Below the pieces are notes generated by a model that was not told the origin of the DNA, did not search any database, and worked only from the letters and a program-made list of their open reading frames with translations. Position numbers and translations under genes: made by a program. Positions 8,369 to 61,843 of a stretch of DNA of 64,000 nt are shown in pieces; position 1 is the first letter of the stretch; each line of letters begins with the position of its first letter. This stretch comes from Diplonema papillatum (Eukaryota; Euglenozoa; Diplonemea; Diplonemida; Diplonemidae). The stretch is taken from positions 1-64,000 of the forward strand of contig JAPJBO010000473.1 of the NCBI GenBank assembly GCA_030068145.1. The letters run 5' to 3'.

Positions 8369-8457
8369 AAGCAGCTACCTCGAGTATTTCGGAGTTAACA
8401 ATGCGTCGTTGCTACCGAGGATTAGTAGTTGGCACGCGCGGAACTCACCTGCTTTTG

Positions 8458-20574: not shown

Positions 20575-21287
<713 letters not shown>

Positions 21288-30218: not shown

Positions 30219-32663
30219 ATGGACCCGCCTTGCGTTCCTCCGGGGGTCGTCGCAGAGGGCGCTGGCGCGAACCCGCGGCCGGCGGTTTCGGACGCGGGCT
30301 CGTCGTGCGGCGGCTCGCCGAAGGCAGCGGAGGAGGGCGACTCTTCGGGGAGCACCGGACAGACTTCTCCGGAGACGGCGCTAGAACCCGCCGGCGGCGG
30401 CGGCAGCAGCGGTGGCAAGGGCCCCAGCAAGAGGAGGAAGCCCGGGCGCGCACACTCGCCGGCGGGCGGCGATCCCGACGCGTCGGGGTCGCCGGGCGGG
30501 AGGAAGAAGAAGGCGCCCCGCGGCCATCCCCACGGCGCGCACCCCAAGCTCGCCGCTTCGCCCCCTCCGCAGCAGCAGCAGCAGGAAGAGCCGCGGCAGA
30601 AGGGGCAACTGCAGGAAGGCCAGCAGCGGGAGCAACAAGAAGAAGAGCAGCAGCAGCAGCAGCCGCAAGAAGAAGAGCCACGCCGGCAAGCAGACTTCCA
30701 ACAGATCGAGGAAGGGCTGCAGCAAGAGGAACAGCAAGAAGAGCTGGAGCAGCAGCAGGAGCAGCTGCAGCCGCAAGGAGAGCAACGCCAGCAGGCAGGC
30801 TTCCAACAGATCGAGGAAGGGCTGCAGCAAGAAGAACAGCGAGAAGAGCAGCAGCAGCAGCAGCAGCAGCCGCAAGAAGAGCAACGCCGGCAAGCAGAAT
30901 TCCAACAGATGGAGGAAGGGCTGCGGCAAGAAGAACAACCACAGGCCGAAGGGCTGCAGCAAGAAGAACACCAAGAGGAGCAACGGCACGAAGAGCAGCA
31001 ACACGAAGGACAGCAACGAGACCAGCAGGAGCAAGAACCGCAACAGCAGGCAGGGCAACCCGAAGAAGAACAACAGGAAGAAGAGCGGGAAGAGGAACCG
31101 CAAGAAGACCCGCAGCAGGAGCAGCCGCTGCAAGAAGAGCAACCGGAGCAGGAAACGACAGGGCAACAAGACTTGCAGCAGCAGCACGATCTGCAGCAGC
31201 TGCAGCAGCAACGACACCGCCAACAACAGCAGCAGCAGCAGCAGCAGCAGCAAGACCATTCCTCGGGCCACCAAAGCCTCGCGGTCGGCGGCGTGTCGGT
31301 CGCCCTCGGCGCGAAGCAGTGGCCGCCGCGCCCGAAGGACCAGCACCCCCCGCGCCTCTGCTGCATGACGCCCACGTCCCCCGCCGCCTGCTCCCCGCCT
31401 GCCCCCCGGGCCACCCCTGCCTGCACCAACAACAAGGCGCCGCCGACCGTCTCGTCCGTAGAGGCGGATTCGTGGCTTGCCCGGTCCCCCAGCCATCCGG
31501 TGCAGTGGCGGCCGATGCCGAGCACGCGGGGCACCACCGCCGTGCTGGGGTCAAGCCACCCGCCGCCGGCCGCCAGCGGAGCGAGCGCTGGCGGCGAAGA
31601 GCGGTATCAGGAGGTCGTTCTCATCCAGGTCAAGCCGGGGCCCACTGAGCAGAACCACGGGTACACACTTGCCCAGCGGATCTCGGAGACCTACCCGAGG
31701 GAGGTGCAAGTCAGCCGGTGCCGGTTGGACCAGGTGCAGGCGACAAGGCCGTCGGTTTTATTCGACATGTACCAGCAGCCGGCCGCTGGATCCGGCGGCA
31801 GGCCGTTTCCCGCCGAACCCACGCCGACGCCCCCGCGCTCCGCGGCCAGCACGCAGGGCAGGAGGACGCCCAAAAGGCTGATCCCCGTGCCGCGCGTGCA
31901 GATCCGGCTCGTCGACCTGCAGCCGGCTACCCAGCGACTCCGCCTGCTGCTGGCGGGTTGCCTGCGCGCCCAGGACGCGAGCCGAACCGTCGTCATCCTC
32001 GCGCCGCCGCCGCCGCCGCCGCTGCAGCATCACGTGCGGGGGCGACGCCGCCGACCCTCAGGCATCCGGGATTCCACCCCCGGAATCGAGCCAGCAAACC
32101 TGGACGACACCCAAGCACCGGGTGACGGAGAAGACGAAGAAGAAGAAGAAGAAGAAGAAGACGCAAACAACGACGAAGAAAAACGAGAAAAAAACGCAGA
32201 AGAAGAAGAAGATGAGGAAGCACAAAAAGACGAAGCCGCCCCTGCCGCCGACGGCGGCGAAGAAGCAGGAGACGAGGGAGGAGGAGAAGGAGAAGAGGCG
32301 GAATCGGGCTCGCCGGGAGCTGACGCCTTGCTTCCGTGGGAGGACGCCCGTAAAGACTCCCTCGGCGGGGACTCGAAGCGGCAGTCGTGCGCCGGCGCAG
32401 ATGTACCGGGGCAGACGAGGGGACGGCCCAGCGGGCCCACGGCCGCTGCTGCTGCTGCCGGCCGGCGGGGCCCCCGGCGGAAGGCCGAAGCGCTGAGAGA
32501 TTTGCACGCCCTGCTGTGGAGCACCGGCGGAGCGGCGGTGGTCGAAGTGCCCCGCGGCGCGCGCGAGTTCCCCGGCGCCGCGGCCGCGTTCGTCGAGTCG
32601 CTCGTCGAGAAGAAGATCGGCGCCATCCGGGCTGCGGTGCTGGCGTTCCACGCGCACCCGCAG
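30219..32663 (+). CDS. Exon 1 of the Gln/Glu-rich gene
   Basis: 815 codons ending ...AFHAHPQ at a CAG|GTGTGA donor. Without splicing the frame stops two codons later (TGA at 32667), so the unspliced reading would be an 818-aa protein. High GC3 throughout. The last ~45 codons are duplicated in the following intron. Confidence 0.75.
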
Positions 32664-35600
32664 GTGTGAATTTAAGTGTTGGGTGATTTCGCACGTCTAA
32701 CAATGTGTCCTCATATATTTTTAGTAGTAGTATCGTAATGTGTCCTCATATATTTTTAGTAGTAGTATCGTAATATGACGGATGTGATAAAAGATGCTGG
32801 AAGACTAATGTAAGAATAAAAGTGTCTCTTATGACCGACAGAGCTTCAGACTTCGGCTATTTGTATGACCGACTAGTCAGATTCTGAGAGCGGCGGTGGT
32901 CGAAGTGCCCCGCGGCGCGCGCGAGTTCCCCGGCGCCGCGGCAGCGTTCGTCGAGTCGCTCGTCGAGAAGAAGATCGGCGCCATCCGGGCTGCGGTGCTG
33001 GCGTTCCACGCGCACCCGCAGGTGTGAATTTAAGTGTTGGGTGATCTCGCACGTCTAACAATGTGTCCTCATATATTTTTAGTATCGTAACATGACGGAT
33101 ATGATAAAAGATGCTGGAAGACTAATGTAAGAATAAAAGTGTAAGTGTCTCTTATGACCGACATAGCTTCCGACTTCGGCAAATTGTATGACCGACTAGT
33201 TTCAGATTCTGAGAGCGGCGGCAGCAGGTCAAAACTTTTGGTCAGAAGTTTTGGTCAGGACACTTTGGTCAAAAAGAATTAGTCGAATTTCTGGTCAGAA
33301 ATTGGGGCGGTATCTGCAGACGAACTTACACTCACGCACCGTCAATGGTAAGATTCTGTCTGAACACTGAAATAAGGCTTCCCCCCAGGAAGAAGTATGC
33401 AAGCACGTACAGGCCAGCGAGTTGAGCAAGCTGCGGACCCGAATGCAGAGGCTCAGCAGGCGGGGGCGCGGGACCACCCCGACACGCCACGGAAGCCGTG
33501 CGGAAGCGGCGGCACGAGCAGGTCAAAAAATTTTGGGCAGAAATTTTTGGTCAGGACATTTTGGTCAAAAACAATTGGTCGATTTTTTTGCAGGCGAACT
33601 TACACTCACATCCCGTGGTAAATTCCCCACGATTCTGTCTGAACACTGGACTAAGGTTTCCTTCCCAGGAAGATGTATGCAAACACGCACAGGCCACGCG
33701 ACCCCGGCGAGTAGAGCAAGCCGCCTACCCGAATGTGGAGGCTCAGTCGGCGGAGCGTGCGCGGAACCTCCCCGACACGCCGTGGGAGGCCGTGCGGGAC
33801 GGCACGAGCAGGTCAAAAGTTTTGGTCAGAAATTTTGGTCAGGATATTTTGGTCAAAAACAATTGGTCGAATTTTTTGCAGACGAACTTGCACACGCTCG
33901 CATACCGTCAATAATAAATCCCCCAAGATTCTGTCTGAGAATGTATGCAAACACGCACAGGCCACGCGAGATCGACTTATACGCACAGGCCACGCGACCC
34001 CGGCGAGTAGAGCAAGGTCAAATGTTTTGGTCAGAAATTTTGGTCAGGTGGTCAAAAGCTGTTGGTCGAATTTTTTGCGAACTTGCACACATTCACATAC
34101 CGTCAATAATAAATCCCCCAAGAATTCTCGTCAATAATAAATCCCCCAAGATTCTGTCTGAGAATGTATGCAAACACGCACAGGCCACGCGAGATCGACT
34201 TATACGCACAGGCCACGCGACCCCGGCGAGTAGAGCAAGGTCAAATGTTTTGGTCAGAAATTTTGGTCAGGTGGTCAAAAACTGTTGGTCGAAATTTTTG
34301 CGAACTTGCACACATTCACATACCGTCAATAATAAATCCCCCAAGAATTCTCGTCAATAATAAATCCCCCAAGATTCTGTCTGAGAATGTATGCAAACAC
34401 GCACAGGCCACGCGAGATCGACTTATACGCACAGGCCACGCGACCCCGGCGAGTAGAGCAAGGTCAAATGTTTTGGTCAGAAATTTTGGTCAGGTGGTCA
34501 AAAACTGTTGGTCGAAATTTTTGCGAACTTGCACACATTCACATACCGTCAATAATAAATCCCCCAAGAATTCTCGTCAATAATAAATCCCCCAAGATTC
34601 TGTCTGAGAATGTATGCAAACACGCACAGGCCACGCGACCCCGGCGAGTAGAGCAAGCCGCCGACCCGAATGCGGAGGCTCAGTCGGCGGAGCGTGCGCG
34701 GAACCCCCCCGAAGCGCCGTGGGAGGCCGTGCGGGAGCGGCGGCACGAGCACGTCGTCGAGGCCACGCGCGACATCCCGCTGTGCGACCTGCAGGAGCTG
34801 GTCAAGCGGCAGTCGCAGCCTGTCGCGTACCACCGGGGGCGCTACTTCAAGACGGCCCCGAAGGACCCGTCGGCGGCGCCCGGCAAGCAGGGCGACGGAA
34901 GCGTCACAGGTGCCTACAAACCGCCGAAGTTCGAGTGGCATCCGGTGCTCGAAAACAGGTTTGTGCAATCGCCCCTTTTAACTGTTTTGTGCCTGAGTAT
35001 CCGGGCATGGGAGATGAAAGTGGCCGGGACGAGAAGATCACCGCTGTGTTGGCCGGCAGTCGGACATCCGAAACCATTCCCCCGCACCTTGTGCGCGAAA
35101 TTCAGCATTTCTTCGAGAACCCCAAGGTCCTCAAGAAGAAGCACGAGAGACAATCGCCCCTTTTAACTGGTTTTTCCTGAGTATCCGCACGATCATGCAT
35201 GGAAGATGAAAGTGGCCGGGACGAGAAGATCATCGCTGTGCAGTCGGACGTCCGCACACATCGAATTGCTCGAAACCATTCCCCCGCACCTTGTGCGCGA
35301 AATTCAGCATTTTTCGAGAACTACAAGGTCCTCAAGAAGAAGCACGGGAAGGCCAAGTGGGCACGTGTCTTGGACTGGGGTTCGAGGGATCCTTTGTTCA
35401 GTGGGAGTTGAGATTCTCCGTCAAGACGCTAGCCGCCGCCATGACAGTAGTGGGGCGACCGGATACTCCCCGGAGCGCCAGCTTGGAAGGAAATGCTCGA
35501 CTAAAGCCGCCCGACGAAGAACCGAAGGGATCCAAAAACGCTGTAAGACCGGGACGTGAGGTCATGCGGGTCTACCCCTACACGACAAGGCACACAACAC

Positions 35601-38574
35601 CTCTCTAAACCACAATAAACGCTAAAACACAACAGGTCAAAGTCCTGAGTGAGAAAACAACACACGGTGGTGTACGCGAAGAACAAGTCAGACTGTGTTT
35701 GTATTTGCCCCTCTACCTCCCTATATTCCATCCTGTACGCTTAGGTATTGGACGTGTTCATCGTGCGTGGCCGTTACCTTAGCTTCTGAGGCTGGACTTC
35801 ACCGTGCCACCGTGTGTAGCGGCTTGTACGACACAACGAAACAGTGCCAGGGAATGAACGCTTACGCCCGCCACTGAACCCAGATTCACCTGTGTTTCGT
35901 GTGGGCTACAGCACATTTACCTCCTTTGATCTTTTGCAGCTGGCAGCCTCCTCAAGTATTTCCTACAAAGCAGGTGCTTATACAAAGATTTTGACGCAAT
36001 GTCGTGTTTTTCTGTGTCAAGCTTCTGGTTGGTTGGACCCAGCAAAATAGCAGTAGTATTATGCCATTAAATAAATAAGTGCCATCGCGCTCTCCAGGAC
36101 CCCAAGCTGCATCCCTGAAGCACTCGGCAAAAAAACAAGAAACGAAAAAAAAAAAAAAAGACACCCCCCCCCCCATGTTGAACTACGGGGGAACTACGGG
36201 GAACTGGCCCACCGACCACACCAGCCAAACACCTTTTTCTCTGTGAATTCTCGTATTTTCTTGGGTATTTTGGGCCTCGTACCACCCTAAAAGACCTCGA
36301 CTCAGACAGCGGAGGAAGGATTCTGCCCGAGCACTAACTAGCTACGTGTTCACCCCCCCATGAGAGGCAGTGCTCTGCCTGAACATCAAACTAAGACAAT
36401 GTGAACTTGAAATGCAGTAACACAGGGGTAGGCTTGCATTTTAGTGCGTGGTGCAAGCAGAATGGTGGCAGGTTTGGATACGCACTGCACTCTAACTAGC
36501 GGATTTCTAATTAGTGGATCCCCCCAAAATCGCGAACAAATAATCAAATTACTCCACTAATTAGAAATCCACTAATCGTATGCCCCCACTAATGACTGAC
36601 CTCAATTCGAAGAATTGCGACGGTGGTGAAGGAGAAGGCTAACTGGCTTGAATGTCTGAGCTTGATGGGTTGCCCCGGTCAACCCATCCCCCACCTAATA
36701 CGCAACAGCACGCAGCAGCTCCTGTTGGCTGCTGCCTCCTGTACGCTCAGGTGTTGGATGTGTTCATCGTATATCGAAAACACAGGTTCGCGTTCGAGAA
36801 CAAAGTGAAAGGCTCGCCGATGGTGACCGGCGGACACAGGGAGCCGGTGGAGGTGCTGGCCATAGACAGGGGCTACCACCCGGTGGTCCTGTCGAAGCGC
36901 GAGATGAGCAAGACGAACGAGGCGTTCGACACCCTGAGCAACCGCTGCAGCCGGTCGACGACGAAGCCGACGGGCTGGGCATTCGAGCAGGCCGGCATGT
37001 ACTGCCGCCTCGTCGACTTCAAGGAGAACCACCCCAGCGGCAGCCAGCGGGACTCCGTCGGCGCCGCACCCTCCAGATCTCCACCTGACGGGGGGGTGCC
37101 TCCATCAGAACCGCACGACGAGTTAGACAAGTACAGAGCAGACCGGTTGGCGCGCATGCAGCAGAAGCCGGGGAGCACAGCGCCCCCGCAGTACAAGTTC
37201 GAGCACGACCGCCCCCCCGGCAGCCGTAAGCCGCGGCCGGCGCTGCAGCAAGACGCCGGGGCGAGGTTCCGCGAATTCCTGTTCTTCCACCATTACGACA
37301 TCCCGTACGCCGTGCGCCTCACGCGCCACCGGCTCTTCGACCCGAAGCAGCCCGCGCCGGCGTCGCCGCCGGCGCCGCCGCCGCCGCCCGTCCAAACCGC
37401 GCTGAACCTCGACGGCAGCCGCAGCTCCGCCCGCAACCCGCCGCCTCCCCGGAACCCCGGGGACCCGAAAAAGCCGGCGAGCACGCGTGAAGACCCGTCG
37501 GTGCGGGCGCGTGGGCTCGCCTGGTGGCACGGCTGCGCGGCGGTCGCCGGCGGCGGCCCCCGCGCAGCCCTCACTGATGAATCCACGCCATTTTCCGGGT
37601 TCGGCATGCTCGAACGGGTGATCGTCGAAGCAGGCGACACACGGGAGCTCGCGGGGGTGAAGCAGCGGTGCCTAGACGCGGCGCGGGGCGAGTGGCGTGG
37701 CGGCGGCGGCGGCGTTTCGGGCGACGCCGCCGGGTTGACATCCGCGGTGGGGCACCTGGTTGACTACAGCTACAGGGGGTTGATCGACCACTCTACCCCG
37801 GGCCCCGCCCCAAGGCAGTTGTACTGCGTGAACAGGCTGCAGAGCAGCTCTGCGACGAGTAAGGTGGAGTCGGACCGGTGGAAGGCCCTGCTGTACCTCG
37901 CGCCGCAGGAGGCGGCAGCTCTGCATGCTGCGTCGCGGCTGCCGCCGGCCGTCGAACACGACATCCCGCGGCTCTCGCAGGCGGAGCTTCTGCGGATCGC
38001 CGCTTCAGGGCTCCTCCATTACACGCACGCTCCGCCGCTCGCCCGGCAGCCGACGGACGCGGCGGGCTGCCTCCGCGAAGAACAGGTGGCCGGCGCAGAC
38101 GCTGCTGCGGAGAGGCGCCGCGGGGGTCCTCCGGACTCTGCGGAAGGCGCAGAACGCAAGCGTCGGACAGACACGCCGCCTGCAAAGAGTCGGTGCGAAG
38201 CTGTGGACAACACGGGTCAGTCGGACACGCCGCCTACAGAGAGTTGCTACAAAGCTGTGGACAACAAGGGCCAGCCAGACACGCATACAGAGAGTCGGTG
38301 CGAAGCTGTGGACAACAAGGGTCAGTCAGACACACCACCTACAGAGAGTTGCTACAAAGCTGTGGACAACAGGGGTCAGTCAGACACACATACAGAGAGT
38401 CGGTGCGAAGCTGTGGACAACAAGGGTCAGTCCGACACACCACCTACAGAGAGTTGCTACAAAGCTGTGGACAACAAGGGCCAGCCAGACACGCATACAG
38501 AGAGTCGCTACAAAGCTGTGGACAACAAGGGTCAGTCAGACACACACGGACATCAACTGCAACGGCAGCAGCAG

Positions 38575-38645
<71 letters not shown>

Positions 38646-40522
38646 CCAGCAGCCGCAACATCAACTGCAACACCAGCTGCAGCCACAACATCAACAGCAG
38701 CAGCAACAGCAAGAACGACAGCAACAGTCACCGCATCAACTGCAACAACAACGGCCACAGCATCAACATCAACATCAACAGCCACCGCATCAACTGCAAC
38801 ATCAACTGCAACAACAACGGCCACAACATCAGCATCAAAATCAGCATCAACCTCACCACCAGCAGCAGGGATCGCCGACAAGAGGCGACCCAGCCTCCGG
38901 CGGCGCCAGGGAGCGGGCGAGCAACGCGGACTGGCTGGCCGCGCAACAAGCAGGCGGCGGCGGCGGCGGCGGGGCGCCGTCCCGGCGCCCGCCGTCGTCG
39001 CGCGGGGCGGCTGATGGGTTCCAGCAGGACCTGATGGCCTCGCTGATCGACCACCACATCCGGACGCAGCACGCGCAGCGTGTCGACATCCTCTCGCCGA
39101 CCCGCGTGCTGCCGCTGCTCCCGCCCGGCGGCGCCGACGCCGGCCACAGCGAAGCCGGGGCGCAGCCGGCGAAGAAGCCGCCGCTGAAGTCACCCAGAAT
39201 CGCGTCCAATCCGGAGGACCGCCCGCCCTGGCTCGACCCGCCCGCGTCGAGGCTCCCGGCCCCGGAGGAGCCCCCCCGGCGCGGGCCCATACACGGGGTG
39301 CTCCCGTCGGCGCCGGAGGGGCCGTCCTCCGTGGTTGGGGATGAGTTCGTCGGGTGTTCCCTCGACCTGTACCCGGCCGGCGCCACCGTGTCGCGGAAGG
39401 AGCTGCTCGTGCAGATCCTCGCCGGGCAAGCCGCCCGCCCGGCGGGAGTCGACGGCGTCCAAAAACCGGTATGGAGGGGGGCGCGCTTTCATTTCGTTGA
39501 GAGCTATGCTAGTAATGGTGTGATCCACAGTACAAAAAACTCAACTTTCCATGAACTTACTAAGAGCTTCCCAAGTACACCCCGTGTTTCACCCCAAAAG
39601 AAATACGGTAACATGGCGATTTCTGGCGATTTTTTGCATGCAGGGCTTCCCGTGAACTTCCCAAGTACTTCCCGAGTACGGCCTCCGGATCACACCATAA
39701 TACTGCAGGGAATAGTTGACAAGACGTACAGCAGTGAGTAGAGAAGAGAACGAGTGTGAAAGAATGGAGGTAGCACGGACTACCAGACCAGCGGAGGGCA
39801 AAGAGAATTTATTTCTTGAGTGGGATAAACACGCAGTCGTTTTCCCTCCGAGGTTTTATTGTCGCAAACGAATCCCCGTGTGCAGCGGGCGGTGCCCACG
39901 GCACACGGCACCAAGCATCCATGCGGAGGGCCTGCCTACCCCCGCGAGTAATAAGGTGCCTCTTCCAAGGCAGGTTTTATCTAGCAAGGTGGCCGGTGCT
40001 TCCTCACGGGCCCCGACGCACGCCGCGTCCTCCTCCAAACCCTCACTGTCGTTTCTCTCCACTCTCTCTCTCTCTCTCCGCATGTGATACGAAGAAGCTA
40101 GGTTCGTCACGGCAGCCATCCCAGTAGACGGAAATAAAACTTTTCCTATTATCCCTCAAAACCAGCACCCATAACAACGACCCCCTTTACCAACAATGCA
40201 TTGTTCAACACAAAAAAAAAAAAAAAAACAGTGGGACGCCCCGGCTCGCGGCGCTTGCCCCCCGCACAGGCCGCGGGGCAACCCGTACCCTGTCCTGGCC
40301 AGGTACGCCCAGCGGGCCACGCGGTGCGTCCATGGGCCGCAGACCGACTCCGCTTCGCTGTTCGAGCAGGCCCGGTCTGTAGAGCGCCAGCGGCTCGAGT
40401 TCTTGGCAGAGGGCGGAGGGTACAAGACCGCTGGGCTTTCGCCTCCCCTTGATGAACAGCCGCCCCCTCGCACCCATGGGTTGCATTTGAAGCTGTCGAA
40501 GTGCCCGCCTGTCTCGTATTAG
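30219..40522 (+). CDS. Four-exon gene for ~1922-aa Gln/Glu-rich low-complexity protein (model)
   Basis: Proposed join: 30219-32663, 34609-34958, 36786-39468, 40232-40522. Junction phases (0, 2, 0) all agree, and the coding total (5769 nt) is a multiple of three. Residues ~116-347 are Gln/Glu-rich with KQADFQQIEEGLQQEEQ-like repeats; ~635-697 very acidic; exon 2 and early exon 3 look globular (VEATRDIPLCDLQELVKRQ; HHYDIPYAVRLTRHRLF); ~1392-1518 seven 17-18-aa repeats; ~1522-1640 poly-Gln/His. No membrane segment or known domain recognised. The ATG at 30219 is chosen because an in-frame GTG nine bases upstream is unlikely in a eukaryote. Splice sites are by eye; the acceptor of exon 2 lacks a good pyrimidine tract. 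Confidence 0.6.
32886..33225 (+). repeat. Copy of exon 1 end plus donor
   Basis: A unit of ~325-358 bp matching 32529-32885. It covers the last ~45 codons of exon 1, the CAG|GTGTGA donor and ~200 bp of intron. A third partial start (CAGATTCTGAGAGCGGCGGC) follows at 33203. Confidence 0.92.
33226..33828 (+). repeat. Two copies of the exon 2 start with acceptors
   Basis: Units start GGTCAGAAGTTTTGGTCAGG and contain acceptor-like CTTCCCCCCAG|GAAGAAG (exon-like 33389-33518) and TTTCCTTCCCAG|GAAGATG (33669-33808), followed by ~130 bp similar to exon 2 (PRRVEQAAYPNVEAQ in the second). Neither reading continues into the rest of exon 2. Confidence 0.88.
33935..34608 (+). repeat. 223-bp tandem repeat of a truncated exon 2 start, three units
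   Basis: Units begin near 33940, 34163 and 34386 (AATGTATGCAAACACGCAC) and run into the true exon 2 at 34609. Each carries ~80 bp of exon 2 start. The period is not a multiple of three, so the frame rotates between units. Confidence 0.93.
34609..34958 (+). CDS. Exon 2 of the Gln/Glu-rich gene
   Basis: 350 nt, phase 0 start and phase 2 end. GC-rich coding through ...EWHPVLEN and AG|GTTTGT donor. The start at 34609 (CTGAG|AATGTATGC) is the only copy continuous with the rest of the exon. Confidence 0.65.
34966..35400 (+). pseudogene. Two tandem fragments of a family I inorganic pyrophosphatase
   Basis: Copy 1 (34990-35180) reads GRDEKITAV, ETIPPHLVREIQHFFEN and KVLKKKHE. Copy 2 (35175-35400) reads GRDEKIIAV, then after two frameshifts FFENYKVLKKKHGK and KWARVLDWG. 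These match the C-terminal part of bacterial-type soluble pyrophosphatases (D-x-K-[IL]-[IV]-AV ... HFFExYKxL ... KWxxVxxW). Copy 1 has Pro where the family has Tyr in the YK pair; copy 2 is frameshifted. No other part of the enzyme is present, so these are non-functional captured fragments. Unit ~185-210 bp. Confidence 0.8.
35472..35735 (+). repeat. Dispersed repeat family A
   Basis: Starts GAGCGCCAGCTTGGAAGG and ends CCTCTACCTCCCTATATTCC, directly before the decayed acceptor-like copy at 35730-35760. Confidence 0.85.
35856..35992 (+). repeat. Repeat family C, 3' part
   Basis: From GAACGCTTACGCCCGCCACT to AAAGCAGGTGCTTATACAAA, as in the 24.0-24.3 kb copy. Confidence 0.85.
36500..36575. repeat. 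AT-rich hairpin
   Basis: GGATTTCTAATTAGTGGA and TCCACTAATTAGAAATCC are perfect inverted repeats around a ~35-base loop. Confidence 0.8.
36786..39468 (+). CDS. Exon 3 of the Gln/Glu-rich gene
   Basis: Long GC-rich frame. Contains the 17-18-aa repeats (38165-38545) and a Gln/His-rich stretch (38556-38900). The frame stays open to 39741, but bases after ~39512 belong to an inverted-repeat element, so I place the end at CCG|GTATGG (39468), phase 0, which joins the phase-0 exon 4. Confidence 0.65.
38165..38545 (+). repeat. Coding 51/54-bp tandem repeat, alternating types
   Basis: Seven units. Type R (ESRCEAVDNKGQ) and type Y (ESCYKAVDNKGQ) alternate, and the last unit is a hybrid (ESRYKAVDNKGQ). 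Period lengths are multiples of three. Confidence 0.92.
39512..39702. mobile_element. MITE in intron 3
   Basis: Ends TAATGGTGTGATCC and GGATCACACCATAATA form ~14-bp inverted repeats with TA at both flanks. About 190 bp, non-coding. It artificially extends the exon 3 frame. The adjoining ACTGCAGGGAATAGTTGAC also occurs at 48260 and 49050. Confidence 0.75.
39703..40231 (+). other. Rest of intron 3
   Basis: No repeats beyond CT-rich tracts at 40060-40080 and an A-run ending in the proposed acceptor AAACAG|TGGGAC (40230-40232). Confidence 0.5.
40232..40522 (+). CDS. Exon 4 (terminal) of the Gln/Glu-rich gene
   Basis: 97 codons ending ...HLKLSKCPPVSY and TAG. GC-rich, phase-0 start. The C-terminal part is repeated downstream with its reading frame and stop intact (40980-41121), which supports it as real coding sequence. 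Confidence 0.6.
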   Translation, partial: WDAPARGACPPHRPRGNPYPVLARYAQRATRCVHGPQTDSASLFEQARSVERQRLEFLAEGGGYKTAGLSPPLDEQPPPRTHGLHLKLSKCPPVSY

Positions 40523-41175
40523 CATCAACAGACACGCAAAAGACGCGCAAAAGACACTCTGTAGAGCGGGAGCTGGAGTTCTTGACGCCAAGCCCCACGG
40601 GCTGCACTTCAAGGTGTCAAAGTCCCGTGTTCCCGCATTACCTCAAGGCACGCAAAAGACACTTTGTTGAGCGGCAGCGCTTGGAGTTCTTTGGCAGCAG
40701 GCCGCTGTCCGAATTAGCATCAAGACACGCAAGAGGCAGTCTGACGAGCGGCGCGCGCTTGGAGTTCTTGGCAGCAGGCCACTGTCCCGAATTTTAGCTT
40801 CAAGACACGCAAGAGGCAGTCTGGCGAGCGGCAGCGCTTGGAGTTCTTTGGCAGCAGGCCACTGTCCGAATTAGCTTCAAGACACGCAAGAGGCAGTCTG
40901 ACGAGCGGCGCGCGCTTGGAGTTCTTGGCAGCAGGCCACTGTCCCGAATTGGCTTGAAGACACGCATGAGACAGTCTGACGAGCGGCAGCGGCACAAGTT
41001 CTTGGCAGAGGGCGGCGGCTACAAGGCCGCCGGGCTTTCGCCTCCCCTCGATGAACAGCCGCCCCCTCGCACCCATGCGCTGCACTTGAAGCTGTCGAAG
41101 TGCCCGCCTGTCTCGTATTAGCATCAACAGACGCGCAAAAGGCGCGCAAAAAGCACTCTGTGAGAGCGGGAGCTG
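40523..41175 (+). repeat. Tandem copies of exon 4 end
   Basis: At least four ~75-80-bp units carry GAGCGGCAGCGCTTGGAGTT and GACACGCAAGAGGCAGTCTG. The last unit (40980-41121) extends through a complete second version of the C-terminus (SPPLDEQPPPRTHALHLKL, same stop). A further partial start follows at 41150. Confidence 0.9.
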
Positions 41176-41206
41176 GAGTTCTTGACAGTAATCGCCGACG
41201 GCGCGG

Positions 41207-41320
41207 CTATCTCTGCGCACGTGATGTGTCATGCTTTCGCCTCTTCAGCTCGCCTTGATTGTCGCGCTCAGGCGCGCGTTTGGTGCCGCGCTTCCCCTTC
41301 GGTTGTTCGTCCTCGGCCAT
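41207..41320 (-). CDS. Small basic ORF (37 aa), unit 1
   Basis: Begins MAEDEQPKGKRGTKRAPERD, then NQGELKRRKHDT. Close to the ORF at 23363-23485 despite unrelated surroundings. Confidence 0.35.
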   Translation of the reverse strand: MAEDEQPKGKRGTKRAPERDNQGELKRRKHDTSRAQR

Positions 41321-41415
41321 AAAGTGAGCCGGTCCATCCCCTCTTGATAGACCGTGATAGTTTGGGTTAGAATGCAAAGAATGTGTGGCGATAATCTGCA
41401 TCGCCGACGGCGCGG

Positions 41416-41529
41416 CTATCTCTTCGCACGTGATGTGTCATGCTTTCGCCTCTTCAGCTCGCCTTGATCGTCGCGCTCAGGCGCGCGTTTGGTGCCGCGC
41501 TTCCCCTTCGGTTGTTCGTCCTCGGCCAT
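41416..41529 (-). CDS. Small basic ORF (37 aa), unit 2
   Basis: Same as unit 1 except D for N after APERD and K for Q near the end. It may simply reflect recent duplication. Confidence 0.35.
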   Translation of the reverse strand: MAEDEQPKGKRGTKRAPERDDQGELKRRKHDTSRAKR

Positions 41530-50884: not shown

Positions 50885-51185
50885 GAAGAAGAAGAAGAAG
50901 AAGAAGAAGAAAAAGAAAAAGGCCGCTCCTGGTCCAGGAACGTGACAACCACAGCTTGCAAAGCTTGAGTCGGAGGCAGCACAGTGCCACAACCCCGTCC
51001 GCTCTGCCCTGCGGCTGACCGTCTCGACGAGCTTGTGTTCAGCGCGAGCGCCAAGCCCCAAGGTGCGCCACGCCTTGATGCTTTAGTTTGGGAATTAGGT
51101 AGCCACTTGACCCGTAGGCCCGTGTCTCTGCAGTACCGCCGAACACGTGAAGCTTGGCTCCCGTGTAGCAGGCTTTCCCTGGTAC
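50885..51185 (-). repeat. Repeat family B, full copy
   Basis: (GAA)n at 50885-50912, then GGCCGCTCCTGGTCCAGG; ends GCAGGCTTTCCCTGGTACCC. Confidence 0.87.
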
Positions 51186-52356
51186 CCTAGTGCGCACAAA
51201 CAAAAGAAAGCGCCATACCATTTTTTCCGCGATCCCCAGTTCTTCTTTTTGTTGTTAATGCATCCTGTTCCACCCCATCCTCCCAAGGCTCCCGTTCGTT
51301 AAAAAGAAGACAAGTCACTGCGTTGTAGCGAGTCGCAATTTACAATCAGGAGGGGGGGCCGCCAATGTTGTCCCTGGGTCTTGAGCCTGAACGTATATAG
51401 GTGAGACGCACAGGCGGCACACTGTAATCTATCCAGAAGAGAAAAGTCCCAATGTGAGTAGTTGTAGAACTTCTTAGTGATGGGGCAGCTTCTTTCACCA
51501 AAAGAAAGTCTCAGGTGAAGCAGCCAGGCGAAGCCTGCGTCACTTGAACTTCCACAGCAAAAACAGTCAAGTCACGGGTTTGCGGCTTTTGGGCGGGCAG
51601 CGGCTTCACCAGCTTCAAGTCGCAAGACTACATTGCCCGGAGCGTCCGAGAGTTCTCGTGTCTAATAAATGCAATTTGTCAAGAACAAGAACCGATCGAT
51701 GGCGGCGTACTATCCTCACTCCCGTCAGATGAACAAAACAGGTTTGAAGGAAGTGCGCACAAACGAAAGGAAGCACCAGATCCGTTTAGCTGATTGCTCG
51801 GACACGGTTTGTAGGTGCAAGAAGGCCCCGAGACAATCAGGAGCCGCGGGCAGCACCGCCGACGCTAGCGTCCGACACTTCGCACGCGCGTGGTATTGAC
51901 AAGGGGTTTCATCGGACACTCGGATGAGCTCTTGTAGCGTGGGTGGTCGTGGCTGTGAGCGAGCTACGAACAGCACCGCAAAACAACCGAGACTCGCAGG
52001 GCCGTCCTGTCCCTAACAGACACCCTCAGACACGATGTAGAAAGGACCAGTGTAGTGCCGTGCACGTACCCATTCCAAGCACACGTTCTTGCAACTCCCT
52101 CCATTGGTTCTGCGTTCTGAGATTTTGTCGGGGGAGGGGGACCCGGCAGTGTTTGCAGTACACAATTGGACGTTTACCGTTTATATAAACGTTTTGCGGT
52201 TCCTCATTGTATAGTAAACGTTGTAGTGAACGCTGGTAAACAGTTGGGTGGAGTGCACGACAAGGCCCTCGGCTGCAGCCTCGCTTGGCTTCCAGCCTGG
52301 CACTTTCACCTTCTTTCGGCCAGTTGAGTATTGGAACACGTGCCCGAGGCCCTCAG
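51186..52356. other. No gene; repeat K copy 1 at 51662-51780 and L remnant
   Basis: 51662-51780 (AACCGATCGATGGCGGCGTA ... CAGGTTTGAAGGAAGTGCGC) matches 58565-58690. 52020-52110 resembles module L. No coding signal. Confidence 0.55.
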
Positions 52357-53718: not shown

Positions 53719-54023
<305 letters not shown>

Positions 54024-54208
54024 TTGTTTTGCCATCGAACGTTGCACTCCCACGAGCTCTTGCGGAAGCACCTTCCAACCACCCGCCAGGGGGGGAAAGA
54101 GAGGACGGGGGGCATGGAAAGCACGTTCGTTATGCGCGTCCTCCTCTGCGGTTCCTGAAATTCCGTGGCCGCCACACTTTTACTGAGCGCTCGACACGAC
54201 CGAAAAAA

Positions 54209-55390
54209 ATGCGCGGAACCCGCCGGCGAGGGCCCGCGGGGGATACCGGAGGAGGCCGGGGCGCGCAGCAGCGCCTGGTCGGCGGGTTCAAGCGGAAGCG
54301 AGAATCCGGGTACGACGCGGAGCTGCGGGCGAGAACCGCCCAACGGGGCGTCGAACAGTACCTGGACGAGGTGCTGTGCGGGTTGGCCGCCGGCGACCCG
54401 CCCTGCGTCTTGGACGCCCTGCAGAAGCTCGAAAGGGTGCGGCCAGACGCTCTGGCGACGTGCAGCAGCGGCGGAGAGCTTTTCAGCAGGCTCGTCGCCC
54501 TGTTGCAGGACTCCCCCGGGCCGCGGACAGACTGCGACCCTGTGTGCAACCCGCACCCCGCCGCACCCGACGCAGACCCGGAGGAGATCGCTGACCACGC
54601 AGTCTTCTGCCTCCGCCACCTCCTCTGCTGCACCCCCGCCCGGCAATCGCCGTGGCCCGCACCGCAGAGCCTCCTCCGGAAGCTGATGCTTTGGGGCTGG
54701 TTGGAGGCCCACGGCCCAAGCCCGGGGGGGGGGCTGGACACCGCGATTTTCGAGATCCTCTCCCGGTTTGCGGGTGCGGTCGACTTGAACCTTTTGGAGT
54801 GTCCCGGCGCTGCCGGCCCGCCCGGGTGCCCCGAGGTGCTTGCGTACCTCCTGTCCTTGGCAGGGGAGGCCGTTTTGGCTCCCGCCTGCAAATTCGTGGC
54901 GGGGGTGGCGCTGGCGCACCCCAGGAGGTTCTGCGGCGTCGGCTTCGCGGCCCCGCCGCCGGGGCCGCTGCGGGACTTGCGGTTTCCGCACCGGCTCTCG
55001 GTCTCCCTGAAGCTGGCGGCGGGCGCGGGGGACCAGGAGCACGGCCTCGCCCTGGTCAACCTGCTGCTCTCCCTGCAGAACGAGTCGCTGGCGGTGTGCC
55101 TGTGCCGGTTTGGGCTGGTCACGGACCTGCAGGCCCTCCTGCACGCCGCGTCGACCGACCCCTCCGTCTCCCTGCAGCAGCCGAAGCGCGCCCACTCCCG
55201 GCAGCTTCTTGCCTCCGTCGTGCACACGATGGCGTGGGTGTCCGGTCTTCGCGAAGCCCGTTTCTTCTTCGAGCCGTACCTGGCGAACCTGACGTTCGTT
55301 CTGGCGTCTCTGCCGGTGCTCGACAACCTCGCGGCCATCACAGAATCGTCGGACATTTTCCTGAGCAACATGTACGGTTTGCGAGAGTGA
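54209..55390 (+). CDS. ARM/HEAT-like helical protein or first exon of the carboxypeptidase gene
   Basis: From the ATG at 54209 the GC-rich frame gives 393 residues of Leu-rich amphipathic helices (for example YLDEVLCGLAAGDPPCVLDA, AIFEILSRFAGAVDLNLLE, RQLLASVVHTMAWVSGLRE) after a basic N-terminus, consistent with an ARM/HEAT solenoid. The family member is not recognised. Nna1/CCP1-type carboxypeptidases carry an N-terminal ARM-like region, and the M14 exons 3.7 kb downstream lack their 5' part, so this may be exon 1 with a donor at or before 55390 (AGA|GTGACGG is possible). As a separate gene it would end at TGA 55388-55390. Confidence 0.7.
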   Translation: MRGTRRRGPAGDTGGGRGAQQRLVGGFKRKRESGYDAELRARTAQRGVEQYLDEVLCGLAAGDPPCVLDALQKLERVRPDALATCSSGGELFSRLVALLQDSPGPRTDCDPVCNPHPAAPDADPEEIADHAVFCLRHLLCCTPARQSPWPAPQSLLRKLMLWGWLEAHGPSPGGGLDTAIFEILSRFAGAVDLNLLECPGAAGPPGCPEVLAYLLSLAGEAVLAPACKFVAGVALAHPRRFCGVGFAAPPPGPLRDLRFPHRLSVSLKLAAGAGDQEHGLALVNLLLSLQNESLAVCLCRFGLVTDLQALLHAASTDPSVSLQQPKRAHSRQLLASVVHTMAWVSGLREARFFFEPYLANLTFVLASLPVLDNLAAITESSDIFLSNMYGLRE

Positions 55391-56825
55391 CGGTCGTCTT
55401 CGCCGGTGGCACGTGCTTGCCATTCAGGCACTTCATAGTTTGCCCTCGCCCTGACGGGTTGCCTTTGCTGTTTTGGTCTTGTCACCGATGTGTCTCTGCT
55501 ACAAAATACACGCGGTAGTGAGCTTCGAGGCCCCGCCGCCGGCCGGGGGCGCAGCTGGCTTTGCGGTTTCCGCACTGGTTCTCGGTCTCCCTGAAGCTGG
55601 CGGCGGGCGCGGGGACCAGGAGCACGGCCTCGCCCTGATCAACCTGCTGCTCTCCTTGCAGAACGAGTCGCTGGCTGTGTGCCTGTGCCGGTTCGGGCTC
55701 GCGTCGACCGATCCCTCCGTCTCCCTGCAGCAGCCGAAGCGCGCCCACTCTCGGCAGCTTCTCGCCTCCGTCGTGCACATGATGGCGTGGGTGTCCGGTC
55801 TTCGCGAAGCCCGTTTCTTCTTCGAGCCGTACCTGGCGAACCTGACGTTCGTTCTGGCGTCTCTGCCGGTGCTCGACAACCTCGCGGCCATCACAGAATC
55901 GTCGGACATTTTCCTGAGCAGCATGTACGATTTGCGAGAGTGACGGTCGTCTTCGCCGGTGGCACGTGCTTGCCATTCAGACACTTCATAGATTGCCCTC
56001 GCCCTGACGGGTTGCCTTTGCTGTTTTGGTCTTGTCACCGATGTGTCTCTGCTACAAAATACACGCGGTAGTGAGCTTCGAGGCCCCGCAGCCGGCCGGG
56101 GGCGCTGCTGGCTTTGCGGTTTCCGCACTGGTTCTCGGTCTCCCTGAAGCTGGCGGCGGGCGCGGGGGACCAGGAGCACCGCCTCGCCTGATCAACCTGC
56201 TGCTCTCCCTGCAGAACGAGTCACGTGGCTGTGTGCCTGTGCGCGGTCACGGACCTGCGGGCCCTCCTGCACGCCGCGTCGACCGACCCCTCCGTCTCCC
56301 TGCAGCAGCTGAAGCGCGCCCACTCTCGCCAGCTTCTTGCCTCCGTCGTGCACACGATGGCGTGGGTGTCCGGTCTTCGCGAAGCCCGTTTCTTCTTCGA
56401 GCCGTACCTGGCGAACCTGACGTTTCGTTCTGGCGTCTCTGCCGGTGCTCGACAACCTCGCGGCCATCACAGAATCGTCGGACATCTTCCTGAGCAACAT
56501 GTACGGTTTGCGAGAGTGACGGCCGTCTGCGCCACAACAGCTGCGGGTGGTGGTGGCACTTGCCATTCAGACACTCCAGGGAGACCTCGCCCTGACGGTT
56601 TGCCAATGCTGTTTCGGTCTCGTCACCGATGTGTGATGGCTCTTCTCAACAAGATACACGCGGTAGCGGGCTTCGTGTCCCCGCCGCCGGGGACGCTGCT
56701 GGCTTTGCGGTTCCCGCACTGGTTCTCGGTCTCCCTGAAGCTAGCGGCGGGCGCGGGGGACCAGGAGCACGGCCTCGCCATGGTCAACCTGCTGCTCTCC
56801 TTGCAGAACGAGTCGTTGACTTTTT
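55391..56825 (+). repeat. Three tandem, decaying copies of the ARM gene's 3' end
   Basis: Units of ~553-595 bp start at 55524, 56077 and 56673 (GCTTCGAGGCCCCGC) and match 54944-55523: the last ~150 codons, stop and ~130 bp of flank. Unit 2 keeps most of the frame (ANLTFVLASLPVLDNLAA) but has lost ~30 bp and shifts frame early. Unit 3 has several indels. Unit 4 ends after QNESLTF. Confidence 0.93.
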
Positions 56826-57737
56826 CGGTGTCGGTCTCGTTACCAAGTGTCTCGTGTGTAGTACAAGCGTTAGCGTGGCTGGTGGACAAGGCTCGATGGC
56901 AAAGCGTGGTTTGCCATCGAGCCTTGTGTGGCGCCCGGCCTTCCCGCAGCAGTGACAGAGCGTCAGGCATCTTCCTGAGCAGTAAACTGGCCAGGAGACG
57001 GCGCCGGCGCACCTCGGGGGGTAGGTTTTGTGCCGTGGAGCGTTGAGTCGTTGCCGCACCCCTACATACCGGATCGGTGACAGTTTGCCTTGACTGTTCT
57101 TTAGATCTGCATTCACTCCTGCGCCGCATTGATCCCTTCCGTTGCTCTGCAGCCGGAGCGTGCCTGTGCACGTTTGTTGAGAGAACTAAAGAAGATGCGG
57201 TTGTTATCCTGCACTCGGACTCCCTACTTGATGCTCGTTCTCAAGCAGCAGCTGCCCTCCTTGCTCGAGCAATTTCACCGCATCGTGACTTCTTCGCTGT
57301 TTAGAGGCACACGGTCTTCTTTCCAAATCAAACCAATCGGCCCGAGGCATCTTGGCCTTGTTCCGCGAATAGCTTCCACCATCTTCTTCGTCTCCCTTCT
57401 AGCATATACGGCCGACTTCTCATACGGTGGCGACCACACAGAAGAAAATGTCGCTTTTCGGGTGTCGGCCACGTGGAATGGAAAGAAGGCAGACGGCTGT
57501 CAAAAATTGCAGGTTGTCAAGACGACCCTGTATCTAAAGCACCTTTTCATTTAAGGTACTGGGGAAACACTGCCCTTGAACACGGAACTTCGGGCCGTAA
57601 ACGTTCCAAGAAGTGTCGGCGCACCGCAGGAGCACACACGAATACACTCATGCATACATAAGCACACATGGAAATTTTCAAGGCAGGATCAGCTCCAGCA
57701 CTGACGCAGAACTGTGTGCGTTGATGGTGCTCGCCAC
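56826..57737. other. Possible exon at ~57108-57305; otherwise no gene
   Basis: After the acceptor-like GACTGTTCTTTAG|ATCTGC a frame reads HSLLRRIDPFRCSAAGAC and AAAALLARAISPHRDF before a stop at 57304. This could be an ARM-type exon, but its composition is weak and the phase does not fit a junction at 55390. Confidence 0.3.
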
Positions 57738-58370
57738 GGCCCTAGACGCAGTGCAGCCCAGGCCACCGTTACACCACGCAGTGACAGCCAGAGAGCTGAA
57801 CCTCACAAAACAAACAAAGGTCGAAATACACCAATCTGTACGTCCCACGGGATCGTCGGAAACACAAAAGCAAACGCAGGAGTAATCAAAAATAAGTAAA
57901 AGGCGGAGTCCTTAGCGGTTCACTTTCGAGTTCCGACTATTAAAGGCTCGCCACGCGGCGCGTCGCGTCGGTGGGAGGGAAGGGTGAGGGGTCGGACCGG
58001 TGGCGCGGTTCGGCACCAGTCGGCGGAAGAAGCTGTTGAAGCCATCGAAGAGCCACGGCCCTAAACGCAGTGCAGCCCAGGCCACCGTTACACCACGCAG
58101 TGACAGCAGAGTGCTGAACCTCAAAAAATAAACAAAAGGTCGAAAGACACCAATCTGTACGTTCCACGGGATCGTCGGAAACACAACAGCAACACAGGAG
58201 TAATCAACAATAAGTAAAAGGCGGAGTCCTTAGCGGTTCACTTTCGAGTCCGACTAAGGCCTCGCCACGCGGCGGGTCGCGTCAGTGGGAGGAAAGGGTG
58301 AGGGGTCGGACCGGTGGCGCGGATCGGCACCAGTCGGCGGAAGAAGCTGTTGAAGCCATCGAAGAGCCAC
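57738..58370 (-). repeat. ~316-bp tandem repeat, two units, coding-like on the minus strand
   Basis: Units share CACGGCCCTARACGCAGTGC, ACCAATCTGTACGTYCCACG and GGTGGCGCGG-TCGGCACC. On the minus strand each contains a GC-rich frame WLFDGFNSFFRRLVPNRAT ending in a stop near 57912 in unit 1, preceded by an acceptor-like TTTAG. It may be repeated copies of a terminal exon edge; no gene can be assembled. Confidence 0.7.
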
Positions 58371-58791
58371 GGCCCGTCTTTTCATCATTACCCGCGCAGC
58401 TGCACAAACGCGTGTTCGTTCCCTCCCGGCCGCGGGCGGGGCTGCTCTGTCCCTGAGGGCCCGCAATGCGCTTCGACTGTTCCTTCGAAAGCGGTAACAT
58501 AGGAAAGGTCCAGGCTCTCAATGAAGTGTGCCCTTGCTTCTTTTTCCGTGTCTAACACAAAAGGTTACAAATGCAATGTGTCAAGAAACAAAATCCGATC
58601 GATGGCAACGTACTATCCTCACTTCCGATAAATGAAGAAATCAGGTTTGAAGAAGCTGCACACAAACAAAGATTTTCAGAAGATTGCAGTGAACCTTCAG
58701 CCAAGAATGGTCACCCGGAGACCCTGAACCCGTGGATCCTCAAGCGAACTTTGTTCACTCTCTCTAGAACGAGTCTGCTTTTCTCTCTCAT
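58371..58791. other. No gene; repeat K copy 2 at 58565-58690
   Basis: 58565-58690 matches 51662-51780. Other sequence is unassigned. Confidence 0.55.
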
Positions 58792-59040
58792 GTTACATAA
58801 GCGCCAGCTTGGAAGGAAATGCTCGACGATGCTGCCAGACAAAGAACCGAACGGACCCGAAGTGCTGTAACTACCGAACCACGTGTTGAACGGACGTGAG
58901 GTCATGCCCTACACGACAAATCACACAAACACAACAGGTCAAAGTCCTGAGTGAGAAAACAACACACGGTGGTGTAAGCGACGAATGATTCAGATTGTGT
59001 TTGAATTGTATTTGCCCCTCTACCTCTATATTTCCTCCCA
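58792..59040 (+). repeat. Dispersed repeat family A just before an exon
   Basis: Full copy whose pyrimidine-rich end (CCCCTCTACCTCTATATTTC) stops ~45 bp upstream of the 3' splice site at 59084. It may supply part of the branch/pyrimidine region. Confidence 0.85.
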
Positions 59041-59084
59041 TAAACTTTCCAGGAGCACATCCCCTACTTACCTTCCACCCGCAG

Positions 59085-61843
59085 TTCGAGTACGATGTCT
59101 CGGTCCGACCAGACACAAACAACCCGCACTACCGCGTGTGGTACTACTTCTCCGTGAGCCAAGTGCAGAAGGGCCAGCGTGCGATCTTCCACATCATCAA
59201 CGGCTCGAAGACGAAATCGCTGTACCGCCTCGGGATGACGCCCCTCGTCCGCTCAACCTCGCGCCCTAAGTGGGAGCGCCTGCCGCAGGGTCGGACGTTC
59301 TATTACAAATCCCCGCGGTTCAAGAAGAACTACGTCCTCAGCTTCGCCTTCTGCTTCGACAAAGAAGACGACACGTACTACTTCGCCTACTGTTTCCCGT
59401 ACACCTTCACCTACCTCCAGAGGTTCCTCAGCCTTGTAGACGCGCAAGGCTTTGACTTCTACCAGCGCGAGCTGTTGTGTCGCACGGTGCAGCAACGGAG
59501 GGTGGATCTCTTGACCATCACCAACCCGAAGCCCGTGTCCTCAGCATGGGGCCGCAAGAAGACCATCTTCATCACGGCGCGCGTGCACTCCGGGGAGACC
59601 CCGGCGTCTTTCATCTGCCACGGGCTGCTGTGCTTTCTGCTGTCGGACCACCCGATCGCACGCATGCTCCGCTCGCATTGTGCTTTCAAGATCGTCCCAA
59701 TGCTGAATCCTGACGGTGTTTTCCTTGGTATGTCTAATCCCGAGTGCCGTTTGGCCTTTTTCGTCTTCTCAGATCAAGTACTATTCCGATGTAACTGGCA
59801 CGTTGTAAGGTTACTGCCCCGTCGCTAACCGGAGGAAAACACCGAAAATTCACCGTTTGAGAAGAAGTACGTGGCCCAGCACCATTGCTCAGCCTTCCTA
59901 GGTTGTTATGCACCACGCGGCAGACCAATAGTAGTCCGAACGACAGGTTCACCCGCCGGGTGGGTCCCGCCCCAACCATTTAGAAGAAAGGAAAGTAGCT
60001 TGCTTTGCTGCACCAGTTCCTGTGCCGTGGTCAGCAAGAATTGTGGTTACGGTAACAAGAAGTAACCCAGCAGGCACCTACCGGTGCGGCTTGATGGGGG
60101 TACGAACCGAAAACAGGCTCAGCCCGTCAGCGTGGGCCCAGCGCCGCCGACGAGGAGGTACCGGGACGAGATCATCGGCAGCTGCCCGGACGCGGAGCTC
60201 GCGTTCTTGACCCTATTCCGACGAGCCGGACATACCTGTCTGGTTTATTCGGGGGTTCTTCCTCTAGTGCTTAGGACGTGCGCCGAGGGCACCCACATAT
60301 TCCAAGAAATGGAACGAGTTGTGACATATCTTTCCAAGAAATGGAACGATTTGTGACATGCAGTGGTGTTACCCACTAGGAGCCTACACAACTTCCATCG
60401 AACTTCTATATTCAGGGGGGGGTGTGTCACTTTTTATTTTGATATGTCAAAAATGACCACCCTATGGCAGCGCACACAGTCACCAAGGTTTCACTAAATC
60501 GACCTATTTTTGATGCCATGAGCGCTGGTGTCCCCGGTCTCTCTGTTCCCGTCGGAGGGTTTGACCCCCTTTGGACGCGTTCAACCCGATATAGAGTGCG
60601 TGTGAGACGTGTGATATGTGCATGTTGCTCCCGAGAAGACACAGAATGGAAAGAAGAGGTCCTATGACGGTAAGAAACCCAGCCGAAGGTATCCCATCAT
60701 CATCGGGATGAAAGCGCTTACGCGTCCACCATACGCATAACCGATGCTGCTGTGAACAAACCAGCGTGCCCAAGGCAGGCGTTCGCAGTGAATGATAAAG
60801 CATGGAACAACAAGGGATCGATTCCCTCGACTCTTTTTTGTTTAGGTGCCCAGGGTTAACCCCTTACCGACCAGCCACCCTCGACTTTTTTCCGGGGTTT
60901 TGGTGGTACCAGGGAGAGCCTGCTACACGGGAGCCAAGCTTCACGTGTTCGGCGGTACTGCAGAGCCACGGGCCTACGGGTCAAGTGGCTACCGATTTCC
61001 CAAACTAAAGCATCAAGGCTTGGCGCACCTTGGGGCTTGGCGCTCGGGGGGGAGCGGATTTCCGAGGTTCAAGGACGGGAATAAAGAGAAGCGCCACATA
61101 TCTTTCATTCCCGCCCACCCATCCCGACGTTCTGGCATATCTGAGAAAAGGGCTATGTAACGACGGCAAAGGGGTTAATGGAAGCTGCAGTCAGTGAAAT
61201 TCTCCCTGGCTTTTCATGCCGAAAGCGAACGAATATCAGGCCACACCATGTACAAATACCATCCACAACAGGCAACTATAGGTGCAGCTCGATGGGTTAC
61301 GATCTGAACCGAAACTGGCTCAACCCGTCCGCATGGGCCCACGCGCCGATAAAGTACACCCGGGACGAGATCATCCGCCTGAACAGCTGCCCGGACACGG
61401 AGCTGGCCTTCTTCATGGACATCCACGCCCACTCGACGTGCACGAACGCGTTCATGTTCGTCAACACCGGCGGCGGCTCGTCCGGCAGCTTCGACGCGAA
61501 GGGCGTCACCGAAGAGGTGGTCAAGAATGCGATGATATTCCCGAAGCTCCTCGGGCAGCTGGACAAGACGTTCTCCTTCCAAGCGTCTCGGTTCTGCCGC
61601 GAGCCGTCGAAGCTCGGCACAGGGAGGAGGGCGCTGGGAGAGGTCCTGCACGTGGCCCCCAACTGCTCCGCGCTCGAAGTGTCGATGTACTGCGCCATGG
61701 ACAGCAAGCAGAAGCTGGTCCCCTACACCGAGGAGATGTACCTCGAGATCGGCCGCAACGTCGCCCTGACCTTCGTCGACTTCTACAAGCTCAACTCGTT
61801 CGTGATCGCGTCCGCGCGCACGGCCTCGCCGTCCAACCACGAG
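59085..61843 (+). CDS. Cytosolic M14 carboxypeptidase (Nna1/CCP type), two internal exons
   Basis: Exons 59085-59727 and 61272-61843 (phase 1 junction) give 405 residues. Exon A starts at CCCGCAG|TTCGAG with the family's N-terminal beta domain (FEYDVSVRPDTNNP ... FAYCFPYTFTYLQ) and then the catalytic domain: zinc ligands H168 and E171 in RVHSGET, KIVPMLNPDGV, then across the intron GNYRCSSMGYDLNRNW, third zinc ligand H266 in FFMDIHAHS, and catalytic Glu350 in ALEVSMYC. All active-site residues are present. CCP enzymes remove C-terminal or branch glutamates from tubulin and other proteins. The first part (typically F-E-x-GNL) must lie upstream. Exon B ends at GAG|GTATCC, phase 0, so a further exon is expected. 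Confidence 0.85.
60060..60220 (+). pseudogene. Decayed copy of exon B start inside the intron
   Basis: GGCACCTACCGGTGCGGCTT follows an acceptor-like AACCCAG and matches the start of exon B. Matches continue through PSAWAQ and, after frameshifts, YRDEIIGSCPDAELAFL. It lacks the zinc-ligand DIHAHS segment and is disrupted. Confidence 0.88.
60909..61055 (+). repeat. Repeat family B, inverted partial copy
   Basis: GGTACCAGGGAGAGCCTGCT to CTTGGGGCTTGGCGCT, opposite in orientation to the other copies and lacking the tail half. Confidence 0.85.

Follow-up and report, generated by a model that had tools for sequence, protein, structure and literature searches.

Copies of exon edges in a Diplonema papillatum contig are probably ordinary tandem duplications that overlap the edges by chance

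Introduction

In the euglenozoan Diplonema papillatum, partial copies of exon and gene ends lie beside the originals in a 64,000-base stretch of contig JAPJBO010000473.1 (bases 1–64000 of a 172,504-base contig in a 271-Mb genome; hereafter the window). Are these copies made by a process tied to exon borders, or do they fall there by chance? The original prediction, centred on 30219–61843, held that coding edges are systematically shadowed by local tandem copies of themselves, the trace of a recurrent process that builds introns and flanks by duplicating across exon borders. From self-alignment of the window and of other loci in the same genome, we conclude that the edge copies are probably ordinary microhomology-type tandem duplications that overlap exon edges by chance and persist where they leave the reading frame or splicing intact.

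Results

Local tandem duplication is widespread in the genome

On self-alignment, all the duplicates listed in the original prediction, down to a 27-bp piece near 7805, proved to be local direct repeats. Such repeats form 25 clusters in the window, nine of them previously cited. The 16 uncited clusters comprise 11 in intergenic sequence, 2 in intron interiors (34966–35349 and 57733–58375) and 3 in coding interiors (30569–30937, 38157–38546 and 38551–38868). As a comparison set we used 19 other 10-kb loci of the same genome, taken at a fixed offset on contigs picked by rank before inspection; a further locus, L001, was left out of all edge tests because it overlaps the window. At least one cluster was found in 16 of the 19 loci, and the same filters gave 51 clusters per 190 kb for the loci versus 25 per 64 kb for the window. 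Averaged over the loci, ~13.5% of bases lie in direct local repeats versus ~1.5% in inverted ones. The repeat density of the window is not special compared with these loci, and since 16 of 19 carry clusters (51 in total), local tandem duplication is widespread across the genome and is not a property of exon edges. Pair identities span ~74% to 97% (5th–95th percentile), which argues for events of differing age and makes an assembly artefact unlikely.

Clusters cross exon edges about as often as expected by chance

Exon edges were taken from a gene finder that scores splice sites and reading frame, trained on kinesin open frames from a family search, with the window and the 19 loci then serving to refine it. 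It reproduced 30219 and 61843, the outer limits of the region singled out earlier, as exon ends; its models include some false introns, two of them just 10 and 35 bp long. When every edge was scored without de-duplication, copies crossed 36 of 159 edges versus 21.3 expected (P = 0.002), with 21 of 114 versus 13.2 in the 19 loci (P = 0.029) and 15 of 45 versus 8.1 in the window (P = 0.07). We do not rely on this count because copies had been called exons and single events were scored several times.

In the de-duplicated test, secondary exon copies and predicted exons shorter than 60 bp were removed, and clusters rather than edges were counted. Across the 19 loci, 11 of 51 clusters cross an edge versus 8.8–8.9 expected (P = 0.21–0.24), and all 11 belong to the 31 gene-centred clusters. 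The window shows a mild excess, with 9 of 25 clusters crossing an edge versus 4.8–5.6 expected (P = 0.036–0.038); these nine all fall among its 14 gene-centred clusters. Two of the nine crossings are due to a doubtful intron, 38298–38568, which the gene finder placed in the open frame 36652–39741, splitting clusters 38157–38546 and 38551–38868. With that intron removed, the window gives 7 of 25 versus 5.3 expected (P = 0.22).

When gene-model, repeat and overlap settings were varied in 18 combinations, P values ranged from 0.20 to 0.51 for the 19 loci, from 0.027 to 0.47 for the window (four settings below 0.05) and from 0.033 to 0.33 for window and loci pooled (two settings below 0.05). The Poisson interval on 11 events places the true edge ratio between ~0.6 and 2.2, which makes a strong preference for edges unlikely and is compatible with a mild one. 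In aggregate, clusters in the 19 loci cross edges at roughly the frequency of randomly placed clusters, which leaves the proposed tie to exon borders unsupported: the comparison against shuffled placements, of limited power, yielded no significant edge excess in loci outside the window, and within that power this is the outcome that the original prediction had named as its refutation. Nor is the word ‘systematically’ confirmed: 16 of 25 window clusters lie outside those cited.

Junctions, reading frame and divergence

Among 41 two-copy clusters, 12 are adjacent events. The junction overlap is at least 8 bp in 6 of these 12, versus 23 of 283 simulated duplications (recovered of 300; Mann–Whitney P = 0.006), with matches of 9–11 bp at 45314, at 58052 and in another locus (L014:5948) among the examples. 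Junction microhomology of this kind is suggestive of slippage, template switching or microhomology repair; any choice among the three we would infer.

Repeat periods are multiples of three in all 8 clusters inside coding sequence versus 22 of 68 others (Fisher P = 0.0003), a pattern that selection on reading frame would produce. In 11 of 18 edge-crossing pairs, by recount, a gap in the coding part breaks the triplet register, a few of these gaps lying at alignment ends.

Divergence was compared in 18 pairs, one chosen per edge-crossing cluster; of the 20 such clusters, L020:147–1609 and 38551–38868 were omitted. Differing columns make up 5.2% of coding versus 10.4% of noncoding alignment, a ratio of 0.50, and coding divergence is the lower in 13 of 18 pairs (Wilcoxon P = 0.04). 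A halving of this kind would be expected if one copy were constrained and the other free.

Individual duplications in the window

The duplications discussed here, with one exon that serves as a landmark, are as follows.

6438–6627 and 6669–6858 (+): tandem duplication, 231-bp period, 94% identity, crossing predicted end 6453 of exon 2751–6453 and the 3′ flank
6454–6480 and 7809–7834: 27-bp piece, 96% identity
32530–32896 and 32888–33221 (+): tandem duplication, 358-bp period, last 134 bp of exon 1 and intron start
33214–34755 (+): array, 288- and 223-bp periods, units with the intron end and the start of exon 2 (34630)
34966–35349 (+): two-copy tandem duplication inside a predicted intron, off any edge, previously uncited
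38157–38868 (+): pair of in-frame repeat clusters with 210- and 183-bp periods, within the 1,029-amino-acid open frame 36652–39741
40375–40586 and 40974–41186 (+): end of exon 4 (predicted edge 40510) copied 599 bp downstream
40631–40991 (+): nested 77-bp array within the exon-4-end duplication 40375–41186
41191–41738 (+): 209-bp tandem array, predicted intergenic, not at an exon edge
42635–42778 and 43242–43396 (+): interior coding segment of exon 43022–45180 copied upstream of the start, 11-bp frameshifting gap
45131–45322 and 45314–45500 (+): 183-bp period, 9-bp junction microhomology, crossing predicted end 45180 (donor or stop) of exon 43022–45180
54941–56821 (54942–56222 and 55522–56814) (+): array, 580-bp unit, ~3 copies, frameshifting gaps, at the 3′ end of the gene labelled ARM in the original prediction
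57733–58375 (+): 319-bp two-copy tandem duplication, 10-bp junction microhomology, inside a predicted intron, previously uncited
59085–59629 (+): exon of a cytosolic carboxypeptidase (M14, CCP5-like), searched as 58989–59825
60068–60208 and 61266–61413 (+): start of carboxypeptidase exon 61288–61843 and, at 60068–60208, its decayed copy, 75% identity, several frameshifting gaps

Two entries are genuine repeats that had been described too strongly as copies of coding edges. The 6438 pair consists almost entirely of 3′ flank and takes in just 15 coding bases, and the source of the 42635 copy begins 220 bp after predicted start 43022, so that it is not an edge. The exon-1 duplication is joined at a 9-bp microhomology, GAGCGGCGG, and its copy at 32888–33021 keeps the frame and an identical donor, with one synonymous change in 134 coding columns. 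Several copies of the exon 2 start lie in array 33214–34755, and divergence differs between its units. Introners or transposon-borne introns would have many copies dispersed through the genome; a genome search with one unit, 33000–33400 (three candidates scored, very common words skipped), gave four places in the locus, itself included, and two further short matches (65 and 74 bp, 80%).

Direction of copying had been put as a rule, with downstream copies expected for 3′ edges and upstream copies for 5′ edges. It describes 21 of 26 cases, the five exceptions being left edges crossed by the first copy (three) and right edges crossed by the second (two). The rule is largely forced by geometry, because whichever copy is still joined to the exon body gets called the exon. 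The tendency of right-hand edges to be copied rightward and left-hand edges leftward is, in short, largely geometric.

Duplication lengthens introns without visibly creating them

Among 71 complete predicted introns, 31 hold local repeats, and 26% of intron bases lie in copies. Median length is 671 bp for introns with copies versus 356 bp for those without. No duplicate pair fits the ends of an intron (intron length equal to repeat period) in any of the 71, and none of 82 introns (these 71 and 11 from kinesin genes) has convincingly repeated ends. With a false 10-bp intron set aside, the best end-to-end identity among the 82 is 0.50, in the doubtful intron 38298–38568, compared with a null mean of 0.36. 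Because repeated intron ends are lacking in this set, we read the process as lengthening introns and not creating them. The idea of a process that builds introns and flanks therefore stands in part: recurrent local duplication lengthens both, and intron creation was not seen among the 82 introns.

The kinesin introns offer a homology-anchored check, as their positions in the motor domain were set by profile score. The set excludes L038 and L041 as well as two gaps in open sequence (L031 at 1212 and L032 at 1976); in L033 the third-ranked splice pair was used (328.5–328.6 versus 329.5 bits). None of the 22 edges of these 11 introns is crossed by a duplicate within stretches of 1.3–2.7 kb, a span that would miss farther copies, with several splice sites uncertain by tens of bases. 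Local duplicates occur in 4 of the 11 introns (L032, L033, L034 and L039), and the L034 array starts 12 bp inside its intron.

Overlapping profile ranges had suggested intron creation in kinesin genes L038 and L041. Self-alignment revealed no DNA duplication in either, and we rejected both candidates, reading them as in-frame insertions. These large insertions in the motor domain (L038:1009–1278 and L041:611–1048) could be long surface loops or stop-free introns. Genome-wide there are 132 kinesin motor matches, which we take to be a large set, many covering the whole motor domain in a single open frame.

Searches with other families gave 70 tubulin matches, 57 of which cover profile positions 1–189 without a stop. 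Many lie in tandem clusters (for example C197:259612–292065, C258, C114 and C485), some with two alternating score classes. The light-harvesting family PF00504 had no match in the genome.

Dispersed repeats, ribosomal DNA and microsatellites in the window

A dispersed repeat with a core of ~135 bp occurs at 9868–10005, 11792–11924, 18692–18825, 51045–51186 and 60905–61046 (−). Its core pairs are 92–96% identical and are found in both orientations, and one copy sits between the two copies of the carboxypeptidase exon start. Two intergenic clusters, 8096–8925 and 9870–11924, are paired dispersed repeats and not tandem duplications.

Fragments of small- and large-subunit ribosomal RNA (rRNA) genes lie at 62830–63088 (−), 23625–24157 (−) and 45677–45755 (+). 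At least 39 other places on many contigs match the piece at 62830 with 99% identity (40 of 1,018 candidates were scored), some of them lying ~7.6 kb from one another on a single contig; between the stretch around 45677 and its relatives, identity is 87%. The ribosomal DNA pieces seem to have been inserted in the window at different times. The window also contains two microsatellites, a perfect (AC)130 at 20735–20994 and a (GTT)103, 98% pure, at 53719–54028.

Discussion

What would leave copies at exon edges without aiming at them? We propose that the genome gains short head-to-tail duplications, mostly ~60–700 bp, in every kind of sequence, joined at short matches. Their source may be replication template switching, slippage or microhomology-mediated repair, although the enzymatic mechanism is one that we infer. 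Copies inside coding sequence would persist solely when the frame is kept. Copies in introns or flanks or across an edge would be tolerated, since the exon body would keep an undamaged splice site or stop attached to it, and the other copy would drift as a shadow. Edge-crossing pairs should then remain recognisable for longer than pairs within introns, because their working copy is constrained.

Several results weigh against chance placement as a full account. Some clusters are closely spaced dispersed repeats rather than tandem events. Before de-duplication the edge excess was significant, in the 19 loci (P = 0.029) as well as overall (P = 0.002), and after it a mild excess persists in the window (9 of 25; P = 0.036–0.038); the 19 loci stand above expectation in 18 of 18 settings (observed/null ratio 1.03–1.29). 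For the coding/noncoding ratio of 0.50, bootstrapping gives an interval of 0.28–1.07 and the sign test P = 0.10, and the ratio weakens to 0.66–0.82 when the four most diverged pairs are omitted. The multiple-of-three result is partly circular, as the gene finder extends exons solely through open frame. The microhomology set comprises just 12 events, and in two the overlap is long (24 and 33 bp). Copies occupy 0.200 of intron versus 0.089 of intergenic bases in the 19 loci (bootstrap interval of the difference −0.004 to 0.213), a higher intron density that uniform duplication leaves unexplained, and they are not clearly rarer in exons (0.118) than in introns (interval of the difference −0.015 to 0.179).

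One rival is that duplication favours splice sites or gene ends as starting points, for instance through R-loops or paused replication, so that edges are copied more often than other places. Such border linkage would account for the window excess, the raw test, the slight excess in every setting and the copy-rich introns. It fits poorly with the 19 loci, where none of the 18 settings reaches significance, with the loss of the window excess once the doubtful intron is removed, with kinesin edges crossed in none of 22 cases and with the many clusters that are intergenic or intron-interior, and we consider it decidedly unlikely. New introns could instead arise when a coding segment is tandemly duplicated and the copies supply donor and acceptor (the Rogers model). 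Tandem duplications do cross exon edges here, and PMC4974935 documents the process in other eukaryotes. The model predicts intron ends that repeat each other with a period equal to intron length, which fits none of the 71 predicted introns; the best end identity over 82 stays at 0.50, a measure that would miss old decayed cases, and the two kinesin candidates turned out to be in-frame insertions without DNA duplication. As the origin of the edge copies it is highly improbable.

Selection might alternatively retain edge copies as alternative exons or splice sites, and the exon-1 copy at 32888–33021, with its frame, identical donor and single synonymous change, is what such selection would leave. 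A single constrained copy suffices for low exon divergence, however, and the coding gap breaks frame in 11 of 18 edge-crossing pairs, so retention of this kind strikes us as very unlikely. That the copies are assembly artefacts is scarcely credible. We found nothing in favour of it, and the copies mostly differ by 3–26%, with indels, and divergence is uneven across the units of array 33214–34755. Chance overlap by ordinary tandem duplication thus remains our preferred reading. A related proposal, that in this lineage transcribed genes and especially their introns act as hot spots of short tandem duplication, appears unlikely to us; if true, duplication would be a main engine of intron lengthening and would leave a standing stock of spare splice sites beside many introns.

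Microhomology-mediated tandem duplication and replication slippage produce head-to-tail copies with short junction matches, and the duplications here share both features (12 junctions measured). PMC4974935, which cites Rogers 1989 and Gao & Lynch 2009, documents intron gain by tandem duplication and, as one form of it, the doubling of an existing intron–exon structure. Like the cases treated there, among them potato RdRp, the present ones are adjacent direct intragenic duplications that include exon–intron borders; unlike them, they involve introns without convincing end copies, and existing introns are lengthened rather than made. In Arabidopsis TOUCH3, as cited in that source, a whole intron was duplicated with exon sequence on both sides. 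The duplicated unit in D. papillatum likewise includes a splice site already present and the sequence on either side of it, but most units hold one edge and one copy mostly decays. In a literature search limited to titles and the openings of abstracts, duplication specific to exon edges was not reported for any such genome.

What we describe is a known process in a setting rich in duplications. It also cautions against judging introns by eye: in a duplication-dense genome, copies of exon ends are to be expected, and their direction is largely geometric. About one quarter of the sampled complete predicted intron sequence lies in tandem copies, and the lineage could serve for measuring the contribution of duplication to intron length and to the supply of spare splice sites.

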